Origin: Ancylothrix sp. D3o
GTDB lineage: Bacteria; Cyanobacteriota; Cyanobacteriia; Cyanobacteriales; Oscillatoriaceae
Direction: 5' to 3'
DNA length: 64,000 nt
Assembly: GCF_025370775.1 (NCBI RefSeq)
Contig: NZ_JAMXEX010000005.1
Coordinates: forward strand, 1-64,000
Positions 25,386-36,665 of this stretch are shown here, piece after piece; position 1 is the stretch's first letter, and the number at the start of each line of letters is the position of its first letter. Under the pieces are notes generated by a model. The model made no database searches. It saw only the letters and a list, made by a program, of their open reading frames with translations, and was not told the origin of the DNA. A program made the translations under genes and the position numbers.

Positions 25386-27710
25386 TCAGCGAGAAACTCG
25401 ACGACTTAAATGCTTTTTCAAAGACTGTAACCGCTGGGAAAGAGAAGGAATATTAGCCACAACACCGCCATAACGCCAGCGTACATAAGCATCTGTAATG
25501 TCATTAACAATTTCCCGCCAAGACTGATAAGAAATTTGAGAATCCCGCGCAAATTCTAAAGGAGTTTGAGCAGGATGTTTGCGGAACCCTCGCTCAGCCA
25601 AAGCCGCCAACATTTGCTGATAAATACTTTCCACCGGCGCTAACTTAGCCAACCATCGACGGTAACGCCAAGCTCGCCAACCTTTCCAACTCAACCAACC
25701 GGCAAAACCTAAACCTATCGCCATCAAAATCAGGGCAAACAAACCCAACCAACCCTGGGAAAATAAATTCCATAACCAGGCAAACAAAAGCAGAAAATTG
25801 GTAAAAATTGCCCCAAACACCCGATTTAAAAAACCGGTAACAGGAGATGGTAACCAACCGGCAACCCAACTCCAAAACTGTTGTAAAACCCCAAAAGTTT
25901 GATTTTCTTCAATTGAACTAGGGATCACATCATGCCCCGGAATGGGATCAAAAGCAAACCAACCATACTTAGGGAAATAAACCTCAGTCATCGCATAAGC
26001 ATCGGTATTGCGGACAATATAAAACCCTGTAAACGGATTAAATTCTCCAGAGGCATAACCCACCACCAAGCGAGCCGGTATGCCAATCGAGCGCAACATC
26101 ACCGCTAACACTGTTGAAAAATGATCGGGATAACCGCCTTGATACTTAAAAAGAAAAGCCTCAGCCAAATCTTCATTTTTTTCTAAAAACGGCATCCCAG
26201 GCTTTAATTGATAGCGCTGTTTTAAAGCTTGCGCCAAATACAAAGCCTTTTCATAGGAAGAAGTAATGGGAGTCGGTGATGTAGCTAACAAATCTTCAGT
26301 CAGATTTTTAACCTTACCCGCAATCTTTGGAGGAACCTGCAAGTAAAGTTTTTGAAAGATTTTGTAACCGTTGGTATTTTTTGCAGAAATAGGCGGTGCA
26401 TTTCGTAGTGCCGAACGATTGCGATAAGGAACATCAGAAATGACAGTATAGGTAATTCCTTCTGCTAAGGGCACCGGCGAACGTAAACCCCCCTCAGTAT
26501 CAAACGCCACCTCTGGAGTTGGGAAAAAAAGCTGTTTTGGTTCTGCCAACGCCGGAATCAAATTCGGCATATCCGAAATAGCCGTATAAGTTTGAATTAC
26601 CTCTTTTGTCCGGTTTGCAGTTATCGGCGAAGGCACATAAAATTGATAAGACCAAGGCGGACGAGTGAGTTTTTTCGCCTGTTCATTGCGCGAAATTTTC
26701 CAGCCTTGGCCGGTGTAGCGATCAAACGCCAAAACCCGCCAAAAACCAGGAGACTGAGAACGAACCCGCATTACTTCCTTGGGTTTCATTACACCCCGCA
26801 GGTTCATATTCATTTGGCTATTAAAGCCATAATAAAAAGTATCATCAAGCTGACCCGGCCCTTCTTCTTGTTGAGTTCCAGCACCGGCCCCACCAGAACC
26901 CTCACCACCACCACGACCCAAACGCGGGTTAAAAATCCGGCTACTATCAAATTGTCCTTGAAATTCAATCGGAGCGCTAACAGGAAAAGACCGTAATTGA
27001 TACCCAGGAAAGCGAGGAAGAACCGCAAAAACCGCTAGACCTAAACCGAGAATAAAGCTAAAAAGTAACAAGTAAAACTTGAAAATTTGGCGATTTTCTT
27101 GGGCGCTTTTTTTGATTTTTTGTTGTTGAGGTTTAGAGACAGAAAGACCCAAACGTGAGCGGTAATCTAAAACTAAAGCTGGTAAAGCAATTGCCAAAAA
27201 CAACAATAAAACCGGCCCAAAGGCTAAGGTTTGAGATAAGGTGCCGGCCACCCCAATTAAAATTAGTCCGATCACCATTGAATAGCCCAAATCTTTACGG
27301 CGGGGCAAATCAAAACTGTGAAGGACTTGCACTTGAATTAACAACCCAGCCAGCACAGAGCGTGTATCATTAGTTGCATCAACAACCGACGCAAACAATC
27401 CCTGAAAGAAAAATCCTAAAGCCAGCAGCATTCCAATGGCCAGTAAAAATTTAACCGGCACATTAGCGCGGCGACGCTGACGATAACTCCAAAAAGCTCC
27501 GACAATACTCAAAGGCACGGCCCAAAAGCTAATTTGAGTTTCCGCCGCAATATCAGTAGCAATAATTCCCACAATCACAAGTGCCTGTACCAACACCCGC
27601 AGCCAGATAGACTCTTCTGGCACTGGCGGGGGTACCGATTCAAGCCGCCGCCACAAATCCCCAATCAGGGGAAGCGAAAGCAGCCGGCGACTTCCAAAGG
27701 AATTTGACAT
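25386..27710 (-). CDS. TgpA-like membrane protein with a catalytically dead transglutaminase domain
   Basis: 774 residues. The N-terminal third is the DUF3488 region with at least five membrane helices (for example VLVQALVIVGIIATDIAA, LLAIGMLLALGFFFQGLFA, LLLFSFILGLGLAVFAVL). A periplasmic part leads to a transglutaminase-like core, then another helix (LGLFALILMAIGLGFAGWL) and a cytoplasmic DUF4129 tail (PLEFARDSQISYQSWREIV). In active TgpA the triad is Cys-His-Asp; here the equivalents are Pro528 (GGYPDHF), Tyr572 (NTDAYAMTEV) and Asp588 (GWFAFDP), with spacings of 44 and 16 residues. Cys and His are therefore missing and the domain cannot be a normal transglutaminase or protease. A binding or scaffold role at the envelope is an inference. 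Confidence 0.85.
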   Translation of the reverse strand: MSNSFGSRRLLSLPLIGDLWRRLESVPPPVPEESIWLRVLVQALVIVGIIATDIAAETQISFWAVPLSIVGAFWSYRQRRRANVPVKFLLAIGMLLALGFFFQGLFASVVDATNDTRSVLAGLLIQVQVLHSFDLPRRKDLGYSMVIGLILIGVAGTLSQTLAFGPVLLLFLAIALPALVLDYRSRLGLSVSKPQQQKIKKSAQENRQIFKFYLLLFSFILGLGLAVFAVLPRFPGYQLRSFPVSAPIEFQGQFDSSRIFNPRLGRGGGEGSGGAGAGTQQEEGPGQLDDTFYYGFNSQMNMNLRGVMKPKEVMRVRSQSPGFWRVLAFDRYTGQGWKISRNEQAKKLTRPPWSYQFYVPSPITANRTKEVIQTYTAISDMPNLIPALAEPKQLFFPTPEVAFDTEGGLRSPVPLAEGITYTVISDVPYRNRSALRNAPPISAKNTNGYKIFQKLYLQVPPKIAGKVKNLTEDLLATSPTPITSSYEKALYLAQALKQRYQLKPGMPFLEKNEDLAEAFLFKYQGGYPDHFSTVLAVMLRSIGIPARLVVGYASGEFNPFTGFYIVRNTDAYAMTEVYFPKYGWFAFDPIPGHDVIPSSIEENQTFGVLQQFWSWVAGWLPSPVTGFLNRVFGAIFTNFLLLFAWLWNLFSQGWLGLFALILMAIGLGFAGWLSWKGWRAWRYRRWLAKLAPVESIYQQMLAALAERGFRKHPAQTPLEFARDSQISYQSWREIVNDITDAYVRWRYGGVVANIPSLSQRLQSLKKHLSRRVSR

Positions 27711-27938: not shown

Positions 27939-28979
27939 CTAAGTTGAGGACACCGGACAAACTGCCAGCGATAGCGGTTGAGCCTCAAGCATATCTAAAC
28001 AAACTTCTAAAGCATAGGTTGTGTCGGGTTGAGGATCAAAAATCTCCACAGAGAGACAACCAGCATCAGGCCGGTGAGTTTGAGCAGAGACTTTTCCGCA
28101 ACACATTTGCAACGAACCACCGGCAGGAAGCTGACACTGCACCCGCAGTTTAGGAAACTGAAGCGCCGGTTCATAAAAAGCTTGCACCAGAACAATGCCA
28201 ACCGCAGTTTCCCATGTGCGCTGTACAACTGATTGAGCCGGTGAAACCACCAGCGTCAAATGGCCCATAATTTCCCGCGCCGCCAATAAAGAAAGCTGCA
28301 TCTGTTGGCTTGCAGTAGCTTGTTCATAAGTTGAGGGTAAATTTGATCCCCCGCGAGCAGCCCCCAGCAACACCAAAGAAGCGACCTCATTAAGGGCTCC
28401 CGATTGACCCGGAAACACAGTCTCAACAGCGCGAATTAACCTAACTCCTTCTCGCACCGACGAGTTAACCAAATTCAAACAGCGCTCAAAAATTTGTAAT
28501 AAAACGGTTTCAGGAACCGCCGGCAGATTGAGAGTACCGAGTTGATTTGCCCAAAAAGAGCAATCAGGAACAATTGTCTCAAATCCACCATCTGGATATT
28601 CAACAACCTCGCTTTCCCAAGGAAAAAGCGGCGGTTTTAATTGGATTTCAGCTTCCATGCGGCGCTTTAGTAACGCCTTAAAACGGTCTTGCACGACAGG
28701 TATTTCTCCCAGACTAAAAGGTTTGTCCTCCTGTGAGGCAGGAGGGGCTACCGTTGGTGAAGCCTCTGCAAAGTCGCAAGCCGAATCATTAGAAACAGAA
28801 AAACTTATTTCTTCCGAATCTAACGGGTCGATCTCAGCGTCGAGAAAATCGTCCTCCGCTTCAGCCTCAATAGCCATTTGGGCCCCAGCCGATAGATTAG
28901 ACTGGGATGAGGCATCGGTAGCTTTTTCGTGTAAAAGCCGAGCGAATAGACTTTGTAGCGCTTCTGAGTCACTATTCAT
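27939..28979 (-). CDS. patU: PatU-like protein, downstream partner of HetZ
   Basis: 346 residues. The acidic N-terminus (residues 1-85, DDFLDAEIDPLDSEE) is low complexity; the conserved part begins near VQDRFKALLKRRMEAEIQLK, followed by PPLFPWESEVVEYPD, LGTLNLPAVPETVLLQIFERC and a C-terminal domain around TWETAVGIVLVQAFYEP. This order and the position directly after hetZ fit PatU, which in Anabaena 7120 is split into patU5 and patU3 next to hetZ. There it influences heterocyst pattern; filamentous species without heterocysts also keep hetZ and patU. The start codon overlaps the hetZ end by 8 bases, implying translational coupling. Name rests on context and motif memory, not on a search. Confidence 0.72.
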   Translation of the reverse strand: MNSDSEALQSLFARLLHEKATDASSQSNLSAGAQMAIEAEAEDDFLDAEIDPLDSEEISFSVSNDSACDFAEASPTVAPPASQEDKPFSLGEIPVVQDRFKALLKRRMEAEIQLKPPLFPWESEVVEYPDGGFETIVPDCSFWANQLGTLNLPAVPETVLLQIFERCLNLVNSSVREGVRLIRAVETVFPGQSGALNEVASLVLLGAARGGSNLPSTYEQATASQQMQLSLLAAREIMGHLTLVVSPAQSVVQRTWETAVGIVLVQAFYEPALQFPKLRVQCQLPAGGSLQMCCGKVSAQTHRPDAGCLSVEIFDPQPDTTYALEVCLDMLEAQPLSLAVCPVSST

Positions 28980-30114
28980 CAGTAGATGTACCCTCTCCGG
29001 ACACTAAACGATTGCGAAGTTCCCAAGCTTGCTCAAGTAGTTTAAACCACCTTTTTTGTACCCAGTTGACTGTACAGCCTAACTTTTGGGCGATGGCTGC
29101 ATCTGCTAGTCCCTGTTGTTTTAACTTTAACAATTCTTTATTTTCTGGCCCCATTTTAGCAAGCCATTCTTGCCACTGTTGGGGCAATAAACCAAGATTT
29201 TTTTCTAAGTCAGCTTCTAACCACTGGTGAACAAGTTCCCAACGGTGACGCAGGGCAAATCGAATTAAATGATATTTGAAGCGCTGTTGTAAATAATCTC
29301 TCTGGCGGGGGGTTAATCCTAAAATTGATTCAATTTCGCCGGTGGTTAAATCTTTCAAGCGCAAGGCAAAGTAATCGGCACAATCAGTTTGTTTGTTTTC
29401 TTCGAGATAAACCATCAATTCGGTGATCACTTCACATCGCAGGTCTTCTACCATTGGTTCGGGTTCGCTGGAAACCATTTGAGAGCGTACCTGCTGAACA
29501 GAAGTATCATTCCAAGTTTGATCAGACTCGACACCGGCCCCTTCAGCGGCCTGTTCCATATCTACGGAAGTTTCAGGCGGTTGCTGTTGAGAAAATGATT
29601 GCGCTCTGAGGATAATCAATTGTTGCGACCGGCCCCCCCGCAAGGGAATCCGCCGTTTGCCATAGCGTTCAGCAAAAGCCATATACTCAGCTAACTCAAG
29701 CAGGCTTTGCGGTCTATATTTTAAACTCAGGTGCGCTTCTCTGCGAAATGCTTTTAAAGCTTCTTCATAAAAGCCTTGCAAAAAGTCTTCTATCAAACTC
29801 AGTCGTGCTTGATAACTCGATCCGGCGATCAAGGGGGTGATATAACGGTAAACAATGGCGCTGAGGGTGCTGTGCAGTTCGACCCGTCCTTGCCGTGACC
29901 CCAGGCTGTAGTAATTAAGACATTGTTGAAGCCGATGTCTGGCGAGGGCGATTGCCCACGATTCTACCTCGCCGGATGCTTGAATACGCTGGCTTTGCTG
30001 GCAAATGCGCGTCACTTCTTCGGCAATGCGACCGGCAACTTCTCGGCAATTGCTGTCAGAGGCGCGAGTCGCCTGCTTGAGTTCTGTGTATAGTAGCTCA
30101 AATATTGCTTCCAC
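28972..30114 (-). CDS. hetZ: HetZ-type regulator of filament cell differentiation
   Basis: 380 residues, near the HetZ length of about 400, starting at GTG (30114). Conserved blocks include EAIFELLYTELKQATRA, QASGEVESWAIALARHRLQQ, HSTLSAIVYRYITPLIA, GKRRIPLRGGRSQQLIILRA, SQQQPPETSVDMEQAAEGAG and a C-terminal helical region (EIESILGLTPRQRDYLQQRF, then DAAIAQKLGCTVNWVQKRWF) that reads like a helix-turn-helix. In Anabaena HetZ acts early in heterocyst formation downstream of HetR. Here it is followed by patU with an 8-base overlap. A role outside heterocysts, such as filament or cell-type control, is likely if this organism is an Oscillatoriales member; that is inference. Confidence 0.8.
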   Translation of the reverse strand: MEAIFELLYTELKQATRASDSNCREVAGRIAEEVTRICQQSQRIQASGEVESWAIALARHRLQQCLNYYSLGSRQGRVELHSTLSAIVYRYITPLIAGSSYQARLSLIEDFLQGFYEEALKAFRREAHLSLKYRPQSLLELAEYMAFAERYGKRRIPLRGGRSQQLIILRAQSFSQQQPPETSVDMEQAAEGAGVESDQTWNDTSVQQVRSQMVSSEPEPMVEDLRCEVITELMVYLEENKQTDCADYFALRLKDLTTGEIESILGLTPRQRDYLQQRFKYHLIRFALRHRWELVHQWLEADLEKNLGLLPQQWQEWLAKMGPENKELLKLKQQGLADAAIAQKLGCTVNWVQKRWFKLLEQAWELRNRLVSGEGTSTDE

Positions 30115-30603: not shown

Positions 30604-31095
30604 ATGCTGATGAATTTAGATAAACAAATTCAAGTCCTGATTGATAATGCGCCCCAAGATGGCACCACTCCTCAGATCGTGGCGACGATTGCACCGGCTC
30701 TCAAAATTCTGGCCGGTCAGCTACGCCACGCCCAATATTATATCGTGCAATCTCTTCAAGGTGAGTGGGTGCTGACGACTTTAAGCAACCGCGCCTTTCC
30801 AGATCGTGAAAAGCAGGTGATTTATGCTTTTCCTAGCAGTCAAGATGCTTTGTCTGGGGAGTTTGCGGCCAAAAATCCGCAGTTAATGGCATCGGCGGTG
30901 CCGGTGGTTCACATTTTATTTCAAATGCTTACTCTTGAGCCTGTCGAGAGTATTCTTTTTTTTGAAATTCCGGGCAATAAGTCAACGGGGACGGAGGTTT
31001 TGCGTTCTCAAGTTCAATATTTAATTCAGGGAGAGTTGCAAAAATTAAAGTCAAAATCTGCGGGCAATATTAACATCCCCCCTGATATTGCTTGA
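30604..31095 (+). CDS. Conserved hypothetical protein
   Basis: 163 residues (an ATG two codons in, at 30610, is also possible). It has no signal peptide or clear membrane helix and is probably cytoplasmic. Recognisable stretches are QIVATIAPALKILAGQLRH, YYIVQSLQGEWVLTTLSNR and VESILFFEIPGN; I recall no domain. A perfect terminator follows. It is divergent from hetZ-patU and converges on sds. No function can be proposed from the sequence. Confidence 0.7.
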   Translation: MLMNLDKQIQVLIDNAPQDGTTPQIVATIAPALKILAGQLRHAQYYIVQSLQGEWVLTTLSNRAFPDREKQVIYAFPSSQDALSGEFAAKNPQLMASAVPVVHILFQMLTLEPVESILFFEIPGNKSTGTEVLRSQVQYLIQGELQKLKSKSAGNINIPPDIA

Positions 31096-31175: not shown

Positions 31176-32147
31176 TTAATAAAGCCGGCTTACTACATAC
31201 TCGGCTAAATCAATCAACGCTTGCCGGCATTCCGAAGCTGGTAACTTCAATAAATGCTGTACGGCTTGTTGGGCGTGGTGGGTGGCTAATTCACGGGAAC
31301 GATCAATGCCTTTACTTTCTGATATAAAAGCTAGGGCTTGTTCGATGTCTCCGTCTTGGGAAAATTCCCTGTCAATTAGCACTTCTAAATAGGGTTTTTC
31401 TTCTAAAGCATATAGCACCGGCGCTGTCAAATTGCCGCTTTTGAGATCCGAGCAGGCCGGTTTGCCTAATCCTTCTGTGGAGGCGGTAAAATCCAAGATA
31501 TCATCGACGATTTGGAAGGCTAGGCCAATATGACGTCCATATTGATAAAGGTCTTCTGTCAAATCATCGGCTACTTCGCTGAGAATCGCTGCGGCTTTTG
31601 AGCTATTGGCGATTAATGATGCTGTTTTGTAATAGCTTTTTTCTAGGTAGGCTTCAATGGTTAGGCTGGTGTCAAATCGATTGAGTCCTTGTTGAATTTC
31701 TCCTTCGGCAAAGTCTTTGATAACTTCTGAAAGTAGTTTGACGACTTGCAGGTTATCCAGGTTGGCCAAATACCACGAAGATTGGGCGAAGAGGAAATCT
31801 CCGGCTAAAACGGCGATACGGTTTCCGAAACTGCTGTGTACGGTGGGAATGCCTCGCCTGAGTTCTGATTCGTCTACCACGTCGTCATGCACTAAGCTGG
31901 CAGTGTGGATCATTTCCGTAATTTCTGCAAGTCGCCGGTGTCGTGGGGTAATCTCTTCTGGTAGCATGGTTGCTCTGGAGATTAATAAGACGATTGCCGG
32001 CCTCACTCGTTTTCCCACAGCGCCAAACAGATGTTCCGCCGCAGCAAACAAAATGGGGTGACGGGCGCTTACGAGTGTTTTGAGGTTGTCTGTCAACACC
32101 CGCAGGTCTGCTTCAACCGGGGAAAAAAGAGATGTGGTTGAGGTCAT
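31176..32147 (-). CDS. sds: Solanesyl (polyprenyl) diphosphate synthase
   Basis: 323 residues, full length. Both aspartate-rich motifs are intact: LVHDDVVDESELRRG (first DDxxD) and FQIVDDILDFTAS (second). Other family marks are GKRVRPAIVLLISRA and GEIQQGLNRFD. The enzyme adds isopentenyl diphosphate units to an allylic primer to make the long prenyl chain, in cyanobacteria used for the plastoquinone side chain. In many cyanobacteria sds follows murI and an N-acetylmuramoyl-L-alanine amidase; here the same order and direction hold, but 1.6 kb separates sds from murI. Confidence 0.93.
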   Translation of the reverse strand: MTSTTSLFSPVEADLRVLTDNLKTLVSARHPILFAAAEHLFGAVGKRVRPAIVLLISRATMLPEEITPRHRRLAEITEMIHTASLVHDDVVDESELRRGIPTVHSSFGNRIAVLAGDFLFAQSSWYLANLDNLQVVKLLSEVIKDFAEGEIQQGLNRFDTSLTIEAYLEKSYYKTASLIANSSKAAAILSEVADDLTEDLYQYGRHIGLAFQIVDDILDFTASTEGLGKPACSDLKSGNLTAPVLYALEEKPYLEVLIDREFSQDGDIEQALAFISESKGIDRSRELATHHAQQAVQHLLKLPASECRQALIDLAEYVVSRLY

Positions 32148-33248
32148 GGATTGGCTGACTCAGGCGTTATTTACGAAATTTTACATATCTTATCATCTTT
32201 TTAAGATATGTTTCCTCTGTCCTGAAAGTTTTGTTGGTGTAAATGCCGGCTCTTACTCTGGCGGTTTCAATTTTTGCTCTTTAGGGTTTTGGCGGCAACC
32301 TGTTTGCTCGCTGAAAGTTGGTGATTTGTAATCTGTAGCACAGATTTTCTCCAAAGTGTCTGAAATGGCGGGCTGGGCTTTTTTGGTTTTCTTTTTTGAT
32401 TTGTGCGATTTTATCCTTTAAGTTCTTTGCCTTCAAATGGTTTTTTCTGACGAAAAGCTGCATTAAATTAGTGAAATTTAAAATACGATTGTTTTGGGTT
32501 GATTGCCCTGCGCCTGAGCAATCTTGGGGTGGGCCGGATGCCGGTTTAGCCGATGGGGAAGCTCTTTGAGCCGGATCTCTATAATTATGTAGATTTGTAA
32601 ATGATTTGCTCAGAAAGGCTGTAAAAACTACCGCTCTGTGTTATCCTACAAGTAAGAATTTCAACAATTCCATATATTTCCGGTAAAACAGTTACAGATA
32701 CTACAGATATTTGAAAGCTGCGAGCCGGTAAAATCTGCTCCACGTTCGCCCCTACACTGGCGGTAAAATTGTGGGCCTGCCTGTTCTTAACGCCGAGCCG
32801 AAGAAAAACTGCTGCTATCTAAAGCAACGGTTTTTAGTTGGGTAGGAAAGTTAATAAAGGTGGGCCGCTGCTTCAAGACAAGCCAGCCGGTTCTGAAAAC
32901 GAGCAACGAGAGTGTTTCTAAAAGCAGACGGCTTTGCGATGGTGCAGTCGTTGTAAGTCAATGGCTGTTTAATCGTTAGGGTTCGGTTTGCCTCGCGTAC
33001 CGGACTTGAGCGGGTTAGCTGGCAGAAAAACTCAGGGTTGTGGGACTGGCTGCGTCGGGGTGAGGGCGAGCGGGTGTTGTGAGCGAGTGGAATACCGCCC
33101 AAAAATATAGATTTGCTGGGGATAATAATTCCCACTAATTTGCTTTGTGAAAAAAGCTTTTCTGCGTGTGTATGTGGAAATGCTGATGCTTTTGCATGAA
33201 CTGAATTTTTTAAGTTAACGTCTCGCTCACACTAAGAATGGCCGTCCT
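32148..33248. other. Unusually long gap between murI and sds
   Basis: About 1.1 kb with no gene I can support. A 94-codon minus-strand frame (32851-33135) has no family features. The gap is T/G-rich on the plus strand and contains several CCGGY motifs. I checked for RNase P RNA, tmRNA and SRP RNA signature words and found none. It could contain an undescribed RNA or decayed sequence. Confidence 0.4.
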
Positions 33249-33362
33249 ATGACTTACCACGATATTCCTTTGATTATTCCTTTTCTGGCAACGGGTTATC
33301 TGCTAACGATTTATGTGTTATTGGGATTTGCCCAGAAAAACACGACCAGAGTAAAAAGTTAA
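33249..33362 (+). CDS. Possible small single-helix membrane protein (37 residues)
   Basis: The frame reads MTYHDIPLIIPFLATGYLLT and continues IYVLLGFAQKNTTRVKS: one strong hydrophobic helix of about 20 residues followed by a short basic tail. This is the layout of the small subunits of photosynthetic and respiratory complexes, but I do not recognise it as any Psb, Psa, Pet or Ndh subunit. An ATG at 33238 starts a four-codon frame whose stop TGA overlaps the ATG of this frame (ATGA). There is no clear ribosome site. It is on the opposite strand to murI and sds. A real gene is plausible but unproven. Confidence 0.4.
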   Translation: MTYHDIPLIIPFLATGYLLTIYVLLGFAQKNTTRVKS

Positions 33363-33698
33363 TAAGTGTTTTGAGAGTTAAATTTTTATGGGAGAGGGGA
33401 GAGGGGAGAATAGTATCAAGATTGGTTAAAGAGTGAAGAGGAAAGTTTTTAGTAAGGCTTTAAGGGCTTACTAGGAATAGTTGAATTTAAGCTAAGCTTA
33501 CCGACTTGATAGAGCACTTGTTTTCAGCAGGGTAAAGGAACATAAAAATTTTTTAGGGGCCGGTCTTCCCTTATTTTTCTGAGCTTGGTGGCAAGGAGAG
33601 AGATTTGGGAGGCTGGGCTTTTTAATGCAATTTATCATAAATAATATTGTATTTTTTGGGGTATTTAAAGATTAAAAGTTTAATGAGGAAAAGTAGGT
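33363..33698. other. Intergenic region downstream of murI, no gene seen
   Basis: 336 bp, AT-rich, with a short low-complexity run of GGGGAGA units near 33391-33410. Nothing else recognised. Confidence 0.45.
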
Positions 33699-33728
33699 AA
33701 AAAAGCCACCAGCAGGGGAGCCGGTGGC
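33699..33728 (-). terminator. Terminator of murI
   Basis: On the minus strand GCCACC pairs with GGTGGC across a 12-nt loop and is followed by six T. It lies 53 bp beyond the murI stop and shows that murI is not co-transcribed with sds. Confidence 0.75.
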
Positions 33729-33780
33729 GAAGAAACCAAGAGCAACTGGTGGTGATTAGCTCTATTAAAGAGCAAGTTAA

Positions 33781-34611
33781 TTATTCCGCAGAAGCATTGC
33801 GAACCGGCTCATAAACCAAGGTAGGTAAAGTGATTTTTTCTACAGAAGGAGTGTAGCCTAACCAGGGTCGGGAAAGTTGAGCGAACTGTTGCGGACAACC
33901 GCTGACGCCGAAGCGAGTGGGCAGAGGTTGGCGGGTTTCCCGTAGGCCCAAAAGTTCCAATTCACGGGAAGCAGCAGCGACAACATGGACTGCTGGATCG
34001 ATCAAGCGCACAGAACTGGGGAGAATTTGGCGCAACACCGGCTCTAAATGAGGATAGTGGGTACAGCCATAAACGAGGGTATCAATTTGCTGCTGGATGA
34101 GCGGTGCAAGATATTCCCGCGCTACTTCATAAGTATAGGAGTCATTAATTCTGCCTTGTTCGATGAGTGGCACAAATTCGGGACAGCCGACTTGCCAGAC
34201 GCGGGTATCGGGGTCTATTTCCATAATGGCCCGCCGGTAGGCATTAGAAGCGGCGGTGGCGGGGGTAGAAATGACGCCGATGCGTCGTCCTTGCTGGACT
34301 GCGGCGCGGGCACCGGGGAGAATGACACCCAAGATAGGGACGTCAAATTCTGAGCGGACGGTTTCTAGGGCGAGGGCCGAACTGGTATTGCAGGCCATGA
34401 TCACCATTTTGACGCCAGATTCGGTCATCCAGGTGAGAATTTCACGGACGAACTGCAAGATTTCTGCGCTTTGACGAGTGCCGTAAGGCAGCCTTGCCGT
34501 GTCTCCAAAATAAAGAATGGATTCTGTTGGCAATTGCCGGTAAAGCTCTCTCAAAACAGTTAAGCCACCCACACCACTATCAAAAATACCAATTCGTTTT
34601 TCTTTTGTCAT
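33781..34611 (-). CDS. murI: Glutamate racemase
   Basis: 276 residues. Family motifs are complete: GIFDSGVGGLTVLREL, LYFGDTARLPYGTRQ, first catalytic Cys in VIMACNTSSALAL and second in LVYGCTHYPHLEPV. The enzyme interconverts L- and D-glutamate, supplying D-Glu for peptidoglycan precursors in the cytoplasm. It lies 156 bp downstream of the peptidoglycan amidase gene in the same direction, the usual cyanobacterial arrangement, and has its own terminator. Confidence 0.95.
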   Translation of the reverse strand: MTKEKRIGIFDSGVGGLTVLRELYRQLPTESILYFGDTARLPYGTRQSAEILQFVREILTWMTESGVKMVIMACNTSSALALETVRSEFDVPILGVILPGARAAVQQGRRIGVISTPATAASNAYRRAIMEIDPDTRVWQVGCPEFVPLIEQGRINDSYTYEVAREYLAPLIQQQIDTLVYGCTHYPHLEPVLRQILPSSVRLIDPAVHVVAAASRELELLGLRETRQPLPTRFGVSGCPQQFAQLSRPWLGYTPSVEKITLPTLVYEPVRNASAE

Positions 34612-34767
34612 TTGTTTTGCAATCAGCGTCCGATTGTTTATCCTTTGTCTCTGTCGTTTGTCTGCTTGTGTTTTAGCAGCGTGGTTCGACTTTTGACAAA
34701 TGAGGCGGAGTTGGGCTGGGTTCAGGAAGATCGATTTCGACGATATTCAATTTTAGGGAACCAGCCC

Positions 34768-36468
34768 TTAATAACGATTTTGTTGGATGTATTGGAGGAT
34801 ACCGCGAGTAATGCCTTCTGCTAGCAGTCGGCGGTAGGCTGGGTCGGCCATGCGTGCGGCATCTTGGGCACCCGTTACAAAACCAACTTCTACTAAAACT
34901 GCTGGCATTGTCGTCTTGCGTAAGACATAAAAGTTCGCTTGCTTGACTCCTCGGTTGTTGGCGCCGGTGGCGGCGAGGAGGTTGCTTTGAATGCTGCGAG
35001 CTAGACCAATGCCACTAGAGTAATAGAACGTCTCTATGCCGTTGACATCAGGACGACTCATGCTGATGGCGTTGGCGTGGATGCTGACAAATAGGGTGGC
35101 GTTGATCCGCTCGGCAAGCTGGACGCGGGGTTGGAGTTCGATTTCTCGGTCGTCGGTGCGGGTGAGGATGGCTTGGATGCCGTTTTGTTCGAGCATTTGG
35201 GCCACTTGGTAGGAGATGTCTAGTACGATGTCTGTTTCTCGAATTCCGCCAATGCCGACGGCACCGGGATCGCCGCCGCCGTGTCCTGGGTCTACTACTA
35301 CGCTCAGGCGTCCGCTGGGGATGCGGGGGATGTTGGCTTCGGGTGTGTTGTTGGGGGGTGGGGTTTGGGCTGCTTGCAGTTGCAAGGCCAGCATTTGGTT
35401 GCTGGGTTGGTTAAGCTCGCTGAGTTGGACTCCGGCTGCCGGTTGTACCCAAATAACTACGGTGTTGGGGTCGGCTTGTTGGAGGGCGACTCGCAGGGCG
35501 TTGGTTTGGGGTGATCTGACTCCGGCACCGATGCGGGCGGCGGGGATGGTGATTTGGAAGTAGCCGGAGGCTCTGTCCCATCCACTTGTGTAGGTGAAGG
35601 GGCCGTCTGTACGGATGACCATTTGGCTGCCGGTCATTTCTACGGATTGGATGGTGGTGAGTTGGCCGCCGGTGGAAATGTCGGAAATTTGGGGTTGTCT
35701 GGCTGTTGTGGTGGTGGTGTCTTCGGGGAGGATGATGATTTTGCCGTTGTTGTTTGCGGTGGCTCTCCAGTCTTTGTTGGGGTCGGTGACGTTGAGGGTG
35801 ATGCGGGCCACCGGCGGGCTGGTTTGGATCTGACCTATCTGGATGCTCCCGATGTTGTTTCGGTTGACGATTTGCTGATAGCCTTGCAGTCGGGGTGTGA
35901 GGGTTGTGTTTTGCAGGTCGATGTTGACGGTTGAGCGGTCGCTACTTTGCTGGACGTTGACTTCTGGGGTCGTTCCTCTGGTGTCCAGAAATAGTCCGTC
36001 ACCTGTGACTCTGACGTTGTTTAGTGTGGTTTGGAGGCCGGCGGCGGTGGTTTGTGGGGGTTGGGGGGCGGTGGCGGCTATTGGTTGGGCTTCGGGGATT
36101 TGAACTGTCCATTCGGAAGCTGTTTGACCTCTAACTATGACTTGTTGGGGGTCGATGGTGTAGCCGCTGTTGAGTTCGATTACTAGGCGGGTGGTGTTTC
36201 CGTCAAATTGGCCGGCTCTGACGGCTCGGATGGCTCCGCCGACGGGTTGGGTCATTTGCGGCTTTCCATAGGTTGTGCCGGGGAGGTCGATTACGAGGCG
36301 GGTTGGGTTGAATAGCAGTTGCGCTTTAGGTTGTACGCCGTCGTCGGTGGTTATATAAAGTCGGTTTTCGGTGCTGTCAAATCGCCATGATTGTAATCGA
36401 GCCGCTTGTGCGCTCGTTGATACTAAAAATACGGAAATTATGCTGGGTAGTAGCCAGTGGAATCTCAT
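34768..36468 (-). CDS. amiC: N-acetylmuramoyl-L-alanine amidase with AMIN domains (AmiC type)
   Basis: 566 residues from the ATG at 36468 (MRFHWLLPSIISVFL), chosen because it opens a signal peptide (cleavage after AQA-A) and is preceded by AAGGAG nine bases away. Two AMIN-like regions cover about 25-340 (RLVIDLPGTTYGKPQ marks the first) and target the septum or cell wall. The C-terminal Amidase_3 domain carries the zinc ligands: VVVDPGHGGGDPGAVG, GIRETDIVLD and FVSIHANA, plus the catalytic Glu in VLVEVGFVTG. It cleaves the amide between MurNAc and L-Ala. In filamentous cyanobacteria AmiC-type amidases also drill nanopores in the septal wall for cell-cell communication; that specific role is inferred from homologues. 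Confidence 0.93.
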   Translation of the reverse strand: MRFHWLLPSIISVFLVSTSAQAARLQSWRFDSTENRLYITTDDGVQPKAQLLFNPTRLVIDLPGTTYGKPQMTQPVGGAIRAVRAGQFDGNTTRLVIELNSGYTIDPQQVIVRGQTASEWTVQIPEAQPIAATAPQPPQTTAAGLQTTLNNVRVTGDGLFLDTRGTTPEVNVQQSSDRSTVNIDLQNTTLTPRLQGYQQIVNRNNIGSIQIGQIQTSPPVARITLNVTDPNKDWRATANNNGKIIILPEDTTTTTARQPQISDISTGGQLTTIQSVEMTGSQMVIRTDGPFTYTSGWDRASGYFQITIPAARIGAGVRSPQTNALRVALQQADPNTVVIWVQPAAGVQLSELNQPSNQMLALQLQAAQTPPPNNTPEANIPRIPSGRLSVVVDPGHGGGDPGAVGIGGIRETDIVLDISYQVAQMLEQNGIQAILTRTDDREIELQPRVQLAERINATLFVSIHANAISMSRPDVNGIETFYYSSGIGLARSIQSNLLAATGANNRGVKQANFYVLRKTTMPAVLVEVGFVTGAQDAARMADPAYRRLLAEGITRGILQYIQQNRY

Positions 36469-36665
36469 GCGGCGCTTCTCCTTGTTTGCGTTGCTGCGTG
36501 CTGTATGCCCCCCCGATGGGTGCTTGAGATGTACCATTACACCCCCCCCTGCGTGATCTTTGCGGCTCCTCGCTATTTAAGACGCTCGTTGAAAAATAGC
36601 ATGAGTTGGGGCCGATGTGTTGGATAAGCCTGCTTTTTTTCGCGGCTTGCTTGTGCGCTTGGCTG

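Follow-up and report, generated by a model that had tools for sequence, protein, structure and literature searches.

The window analysed here, 64,000 nucleotides from the start of contig NZ_JAMXEX010000005.1 of the cyanobacterium Ancylothrix sp. D3o (assembly GCF_025370775.1), encodes a TgpA-like protein whose transglutaminase domain lacks the catalytic cysteine. The gene, called pseudo-TgpA below, is to judge from sequence comparison a variant of the known TgpA-like kind, a pseudo-enzyme that has become fixed in a broad range of cyanobacteria. It is probable that the protein is an ancient, vertically inherited pseudo-enzyme acting as the third member of a MoxR-DUF58-TgpA module, with the dead domain serving in binding during envelope upkeep. 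The features discussed are collected in Table 1; genomes, loci and contigs carry the prefixes G, L and C, and the window's own genome is G000.

Table 1. The pseudo-TgpA gene, its altered sites, its neighbours and its partner genes. Positions are those of the window unless a contig is named.
Feature	Position	Strand	Description and basis
pseudo-TgpA gene	25386..27710	-	774 aa; TgpA_N / dead transglutaminase / DUF4129; ORF, Pfam, orthologues, structure model
TgpA_N	26421..27536	-	membrane helices and start of periplasmic part, residues 59-430; Pfam, whole-genome search
dead transglutaminase domain	25911..26267	-	residues 482-600, most constrained part; Pfam, dN/dS, entropy
DUF4129	25455..25625	-	C-terminal tail, residues 696-752; Pfam
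codon 528	26127..26129	-	Pro replacing catalytic Cys; TgpA alignment, orthologues, model
codon 572	25995..25997	-	Tyr replacing catalytic His; TgpA alignment, orthologues
codon 574	25989..25991	-	Met replacing active-site Trp of 'HAW'; TgpA alignment, orthologues
codon 588	25947..25949	-	Asp kept (Asn in 14/95 orthologues); TgpA alignment, orthologues
patU-like gene	27939..28979	-	named for its place behind hetZ; matches neither Pfam nor NCBIfam models
hetZ	28972..30114	-	NCBIfam NF037963, 642 bits, cut-off 550
divergent DUF58 partner, own genome	contig C5, 168110-169291		orthologue search
orphan MoxR ATPase, own genome	contig C1, 480555-481484		orthologue search

Pseudo-TgpA has the three domains of the TgpA-like architecture, each above its curated Pfam gathering cut-off: TgpA_N (80.6 bits, cut-off 30), Transglut_core at residues 482-589 (74.6 bits, cut-off 23) and DUF4129 (49.4 bits, cut-off 24.8). 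An earlier note on this DNA, made from the letters alone, had called the membrane and DUF4129 parts intact. Aligned by phmmer with the periplasmic domain of Pseudomonas aeruginosa TgpA, known from a crystal structure (6g49), the protein shows no gap between Pro528 and Asp588, and Pro528, Tyr572 and Asp588 fall at the Cys, His and Asp positions, so that the Cys-His-Asp triad of catalytic transglutaminases is incomplete. The same alignment agrees with what had been read by eye, namely that Cys and His are replaced, that Asp is kept, and that the spacings of 44 and 16 residues are those of the TgpA triad. A third active-site change, Met574 in place of the Trp of 'HAW', was absent from that first list.

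The catalytic Cys of the transglutaminase fold sits at the start of a helix, where proline is well tolerated, and in the structure model Pro528 is the first residue of helix 528-541. An intact Cys and His elsewhere in the domain were looked for among 95 orthologues, and no alternative was found: no column of residues 440-620 has Cys in more than three of the 95, and in the same stretch the only columns besides the catalytic one with His in most rows are 530 (91/95) and 593 (75/95). A transglutaminase-like motif elsewhere in the window was also considered and rejected; the two matches to one pattern lie in reading frames that stops interrupt close by.

Eight genomes of the family and 292 of the phylum were searched, and the loci were fetched and aligned. 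The 95 orthologues are those that cover the site; three more were not fetched, and in G128 the gene is broken and the site missing. Column 528 holds Pro in 83, Ala in 8, Glu in 2, Val in 1 and Ile in 1, with Cys in none. Column 574 is Met in 56, Leu in 28, Ile in 8 and Val in 3, and never Trp, while column 572 is Tyr in 62, Phe in 15, His in 14 and Gln in 4, and column 588 is Asp in 81 and Asn in 14. In a second set, the best 80 of 434 loci, which is biased to close relatives and may overlap with the 95 orthologues, position 528 is Pro in 79 and Ala in one; this set spans Nostoc, Oscillatoria, Planktothrix, Fischerella, Chroococcidiopsidaceae and others. Loss in every orthologue is confined to the Cys and the Trp; the His position varies and the Asp is D or N. 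The lineage-wide pseudo-enzyme that the earlier note suspected is upheld (the Cys is missing in 95/95 orthologues and 80/80 loci), with the correction that the His persists in 14 of 95.

The Cys, His, Asp and Trp are kept in all 41 other transglutaminase-domain proteins of the alignment, 17 of them from deeper classes of the phylum and one from the window's own genome. A distant TgpA with intact C-H-D was found, and the dead one not seen, in G043, G092, G248, G184 and four genomes of family f26. The same-class lineages with an intact distant TgpA are represented by loci L115-L118, L120, L123, L128 and L131.

The tree of 78 proteins comes from a quick search, for which the tool warns of long branches. 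In it, the 48 dead proteins form a clade of their own (SH-aLRT 100), as do 16 intact proteins from the deep part of the phylum (support 95). Both clades join one very long row, L134, in a three-way fork under a branch with support of 93. Within the dead clade (48 rows), at least 17 changes fall in the His column and six in the Asp column. The simplest reading would be that the catalytic Cys was lost once, before the sampled carrier families diverged, and that this residue went first and permanently, with the rest of the triad then drifting within a narrow set of residues. On the tree and the alignment, pseudo-TgpA appears to be an ancient, vertically inherited pseudo-enzyme. Residues 449-450 were considered as a clade-specific feature and dropped, as they are probably an artefact of gaps in most rows.

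The loss of the Cys has not been followed by relaxed selection. In 163 pairs with dS between 0.05 and 1.2, which share sequences and are not independent, the median dN/dS of the whole protein is 0.146. Purifying selection is strongest in the dead domain, with a median of 0.060 (161 pairs) versus 0.130 in the membrane part, 0.162 in the rest of the ectodomain and 0.151 in the C-terminal part. The ratio of non-synonymous differences between the domain and the rest is 0.59 in the dead proteins versus 0.61-0.64 in three intact sets; the relative constraint of the dead domain is therefore as in living enzymes. Three genome pairs, all those in which dead gene and intact paralogue are comparable, give dN/dS values for the dead domain versus the intact paralogue of 0.019 versus 0.241 (G037-G081), 0.060 versus 0.236 (G238-G081) and 0.078 versus 0.243 (G134-G081).

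The structure model has a mean pLDDT of 77, with most of the domain near 90, and shows the TgpA fold: it matches 6g4h with Z 23.7 over 261 residues at 3.3 Å, and with a Foldseek E-value of 3.6e-15. Because this fold is kept and the domain is under stronger purifying selection than the rest, it probably has a sequence-specific job other than acyl transfer. A non-enzymatic role for pseudo-TgpA would be the natural conclusion.

TgpA-like genes often neighbour genes for a MoxR ATPase and a DUF58 protein. Both partners are present in the genome of pseudo-TgpA, where the three genes are not contiguous: TgpA and DUF58 lie far apart on contig C5 (at 25389 and 168110), and MoxR on C1 (at 480555). Of the 292 genomes, the 92 with the dead TgpA are precisely those with the DUF58 orthologue; the other 200 have no match at that level. 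The weakest match within the set has an E-value of 1e-92 (3e-36 for a broken copy in G128), and the best outside it 2e-24. The orphan MoxR orthologue, at 66 percent identity or more, is found in 90 of the 92 dead-TgpA genomes and in no others of the 292, the best match outside the set being E 4e-98 (G028). One of the 90 is a partial match in the fragmented assembly of G162; G138 and G128 have none, and G138 keeps TgpA and DUF58. The cut-offs for calling an orthologue were chosen after the gap in scores was visible.

Losses follow the same pattern. Eight genomes (G058, G240, G094, G077, G154, G166, G190 and G275) are without TgpA and MoxR of this kind, and DUF58 at the orthologue level was not found in them either, G275 giving a weak match of E 1.5e-5. 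The MoxR matches that remain in G058, G240 and G094 are 47-50 percent identical and represent paralogues. The family and genus codes point to some five to six separate losses in the order, and since the genomes are related, few independent loss events lie behind the co-occurrence. MoxR, DUF58 and TgpA are kept and lost as a set, and they may form a physical complex. In G128 (contig C1, 2403023-2404197 and 3575132-3575943), TgpA and DUF58 are both fragmented and MoxR is missing: unlinked genes have decayed in parallel. Its congener G061 has the complete set.

In nine of 17 genomes of deeper relatives, TgpA and the best DUF58 match are neighbours; in the other eight, that match is on another contig. 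A MoxR match adjoins the neighbouring DUF58 in at least eight of the nine. As the genes are contiguous in several deep relatives and scattered yet co-occurring here, the operon seems to have split while the set stayed together. At L231 (genome G158), pseudo-TgpA is preceded on its own strand by the orphan MoxR, at a distance of about 4.5 kb, which may be a relic of the old operon. The DUF58 partner keeps the core GD..R.IHW stretch. Loss of its metal-site (MIDAS) motif was examined as a sign of parallel decay and is not usable, the four related DUF58 proteins aligned with it also being without the motif. With the dead part the most protected and the gene kept and lost with two partners, pseudo-TgpA probably serves the cell envelope as a binding or structural component.

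The genomic position of pseudo-TgpA gives a different kind of evidence. In the window, hetZ and patU are adjacent and in the same direction, and both lie upstream of pseudo-TgpA in 70 of 81 loci (the window and 69 of the best 80 of 434). In the other 11, neither gene is seen in about 8 kb upstream at L144, L192, L202, L206 and L213, nor in the 3.1 and 3.5 kb of upstream sequence at L175 and L209; L153, L155 and L191 have less than 1 kb of upstream sequence, and at L217 patU is seen before the contig ends. A hetZ orthologue, at 57 percent identity or more, is present in 63 of 292 genomes, 60 of which have the dead gene. In 49 of these 60, it is upstream, in the same direction and within 4.6 kb; the remaining 11 comprise one convergent pair, two with the genes far apart on the same contig and eight with them on different contigs. 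No hetZ orthologue at that identity is found in 32 of the 92 dead-gene genomes, and G058, G240 and G094 have hetZ and no dead gene. HetZ is neither necessary nor sufficient for pseudo-TgpA, and the link is positional only. Because of these 32 and three genomes, the MoxR-DUF58 link is the stronger of the two. Twenty loci unlinked to hetZ had no prominent conserved neighbour, the commonest family occurring in five of 20 at varied distances.

Two rearrangements were seen. At L261:2489-5299 (+) in genome G029, hetZ is fused in frame to pseudo-TgpA in one ORF of 936 aa, which lacks the intervening patU and the N-terminal membrane segment of TgpA, and at L262 (genome G156) pseudo-TgpA is inverted beside hetZ and faces it. 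Divergent from hetZ in the window (30604-31095, +) is a gene for a 163-aa protein that has relatives in 66 of 81 loci and no Pfam or NCBIfam match. Upstream of hetZ (31176-36537, -) are genes for a solanesyl diphosphate synthase, a glutamate racemase (murI) and an AMIN-Amidase_3 protein, with relatives in 42, 30 and 30 of 81 loci, respectively, within an 8 kb flank; the surroundings as a whole give the hetZ-patU-tgpA locus a wall-related setting. The window's genome encodes another HetZ-like protein (G000 contig C3, 130712-131800), with 55 percent identity to HetZ, and such a second copy is found in many hetZ-bearing genomes. A scan counted 10 promoter-like sites versus 6.0 expected, and two terminator-like sites versus 7.6 expected.

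Part of this neighbourhood has been described. Passages of one study report that PatU3 restricts the synthesis of septal peptidoglycan and has the divisome protein ZipS as an interaction partner (PMC12288457), and passages of a comparison of genomes list hetZ and patU3 among genes confined to filamentous species (PMC2821919). The adjacency of a 'transglutaminase' to patU is already in print for one species (PMC9284123): excerpts of that paper call the gene in the hetL/patU cluster of Mastigocladus laminosus a pseudogene with a stop codon and its counterpart functional in PCC 7120, and these excerpts do not mention catalytic residues. The position behind hetZ-patU, which are tied to septal wall synthesis, points to, rather than proves, a septal use in filamentous species.

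Several known systems resemble pseudo-TgpA in part. P. aeruginosa TgpA (PA2873; 6g49, 6g4h) shares with it TgpA_N and a periplasmic transglutaminase domain, the fold and the triad spacing, but keeps the triad, whereas pseudo-TgpA has Cys, His and Trp replaced. Excerpts of the TgpA study describe a conserved triad and an assay of the purified domain for transglutaminase activity (PMC3507681). The MoxR-DUF58-TgpA operons of the deep classes of the phylum consist of the same three families, whose orthologues co-occur in cyanobacteria; in the dead-TgpA cyanobacteria, however, the genes are scattered and the transglutaminase is dead. These families also make up the bifidobacterial PFNA operon, as part of one article relates (PMC12067865). 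Erythrocyte protein 4.2 (EPB42) is likewise an inactive transglutaminase fold (passage of PMC10318531) within a membrane-skeleton complex (8cs9_X, Z 9.2), but is an animal protein of unrelated architecture and represents an independent loss. The intact paralogue of the window's genome (G000 contig C14) has a transglutaminase domain 39 percent identical over 99 residues; unlike pseudo-TgpA, it has C-H-D intact and shares an operon with MoxR and DUF58 genes of its own. In open-licence papers, as far as their accessible text goes, nothing was found on the lost catalysis or on the partner genes. A survey of bacterial transglutaminase homologues by Makarova, Aravind and Koonin in 1999 may have noted inactive cyanobacterial members.

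Other explanations of these observations can be weighed. It is somewhat unlikely that pseudo-TgpA partners HetZ-PatU as a sensor, in the membrane or periplasm, dedicated to cell differentiation and septum control in filamentous cyanobacteria, and that its MoxR-DUF58 link is a relic. Such a role would fit hetZ lying upstream in 49 of 60 genomes, hetZ and patU preceding the gene in 70 of 81 loci, the limit that PatU3 sets on septal peptidoglycan synthesis (PMC12288457, in the passages cited), the murI and AMIN/Amidase_3 genes further upstream and the one in-frame hetZ fusion. However, the gene is kept in genomes without hetZ and absent from three with it, no prominent neighbour takes the place of hetZ at the 20 unlinked loci, and co-loss tracks DUF58 and MoxR, not hetZ.

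It is very improbable that the dead domain has become a different kind of enzyme, using another nucleophile within the same cleft. Strong constraint, the conserved polar residues Asp529, His530, Asn568 and Glu576 near the site, and Ser532 in 72 of 95 orthologues would accord with it, but Ser532 is not universal, and the at least 17 changes in the His column and six in the Asp column (48 tree rows) are unlike a working catalytic centre. Just as little probability attaches to an inactive antagonist, or decoy, of an active TgpA-like paralogue in the same cell. Although the window's own genome has an intact C-H-D copy in a MoxR-DUF58-TgpA operon, this copy is patchy in distribution, most dead-gene genomes show a single match (with at most three candidates scored per genome, so that some copies may have escaped notice), and the resemblance of dead and intact proteins is limited to the 99 residues mentioned above. 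The replacement of two catalytic residues might also be ascribed to decay, chance alteration or a sequencing error in the window's genome. There is practically no likelihood of this, and it is ruled out by the conservation across 95/95 orthologues and 80/80 loci: the same kind of replacement recurs in unrelated assemblies, and dN/dS is far below 1, in line with the first reading of the gene as not decayed.

Under the preferred explanation, a non-catalytic third member of the MoxR-DUF58-TgpA module, the job of the dead domain may be binding. It would bind a periplasmic protein or a peptidoglycan peptide, and the membrane part and the DUF4129 tail would relay this binding to the DUF58-MoxR chaperone pair, or be remodelled by it. 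The setting would be envelope or septum upkeep. In a more far-reaching version, which is quite unlikely, the MoxR-DUF58-TgpA envelope system would have been converted from an enzyme system to a non-catalytic binding machine before the divergence of most cyanobacterial lineages and later wired to HetZ-PatU septum control in filamentous lineages.

Inactive transglutaminase folds met in the literature are mostly eukaryotic; here, one appears to be fixed across a large part of a bacterial phylum, with its dead domain under tighter constraint than the living paralogue in three paired comparisons. The shared presence and loss of the three genes suggests that catalysis is not the sole useful output of MoxR-DUF58-TgpA systems, and DUF58 and the orphan MoxR provide two testable partners for a protein that is uncharacterised. 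The place beside hetZ-patU offers a lead on the cell-wall side of filament formation. If the conversion and the wiring to HetZ-PatU were true, pseudo-TgpA would be an overlooked component of cyanobacterial multicellularity.
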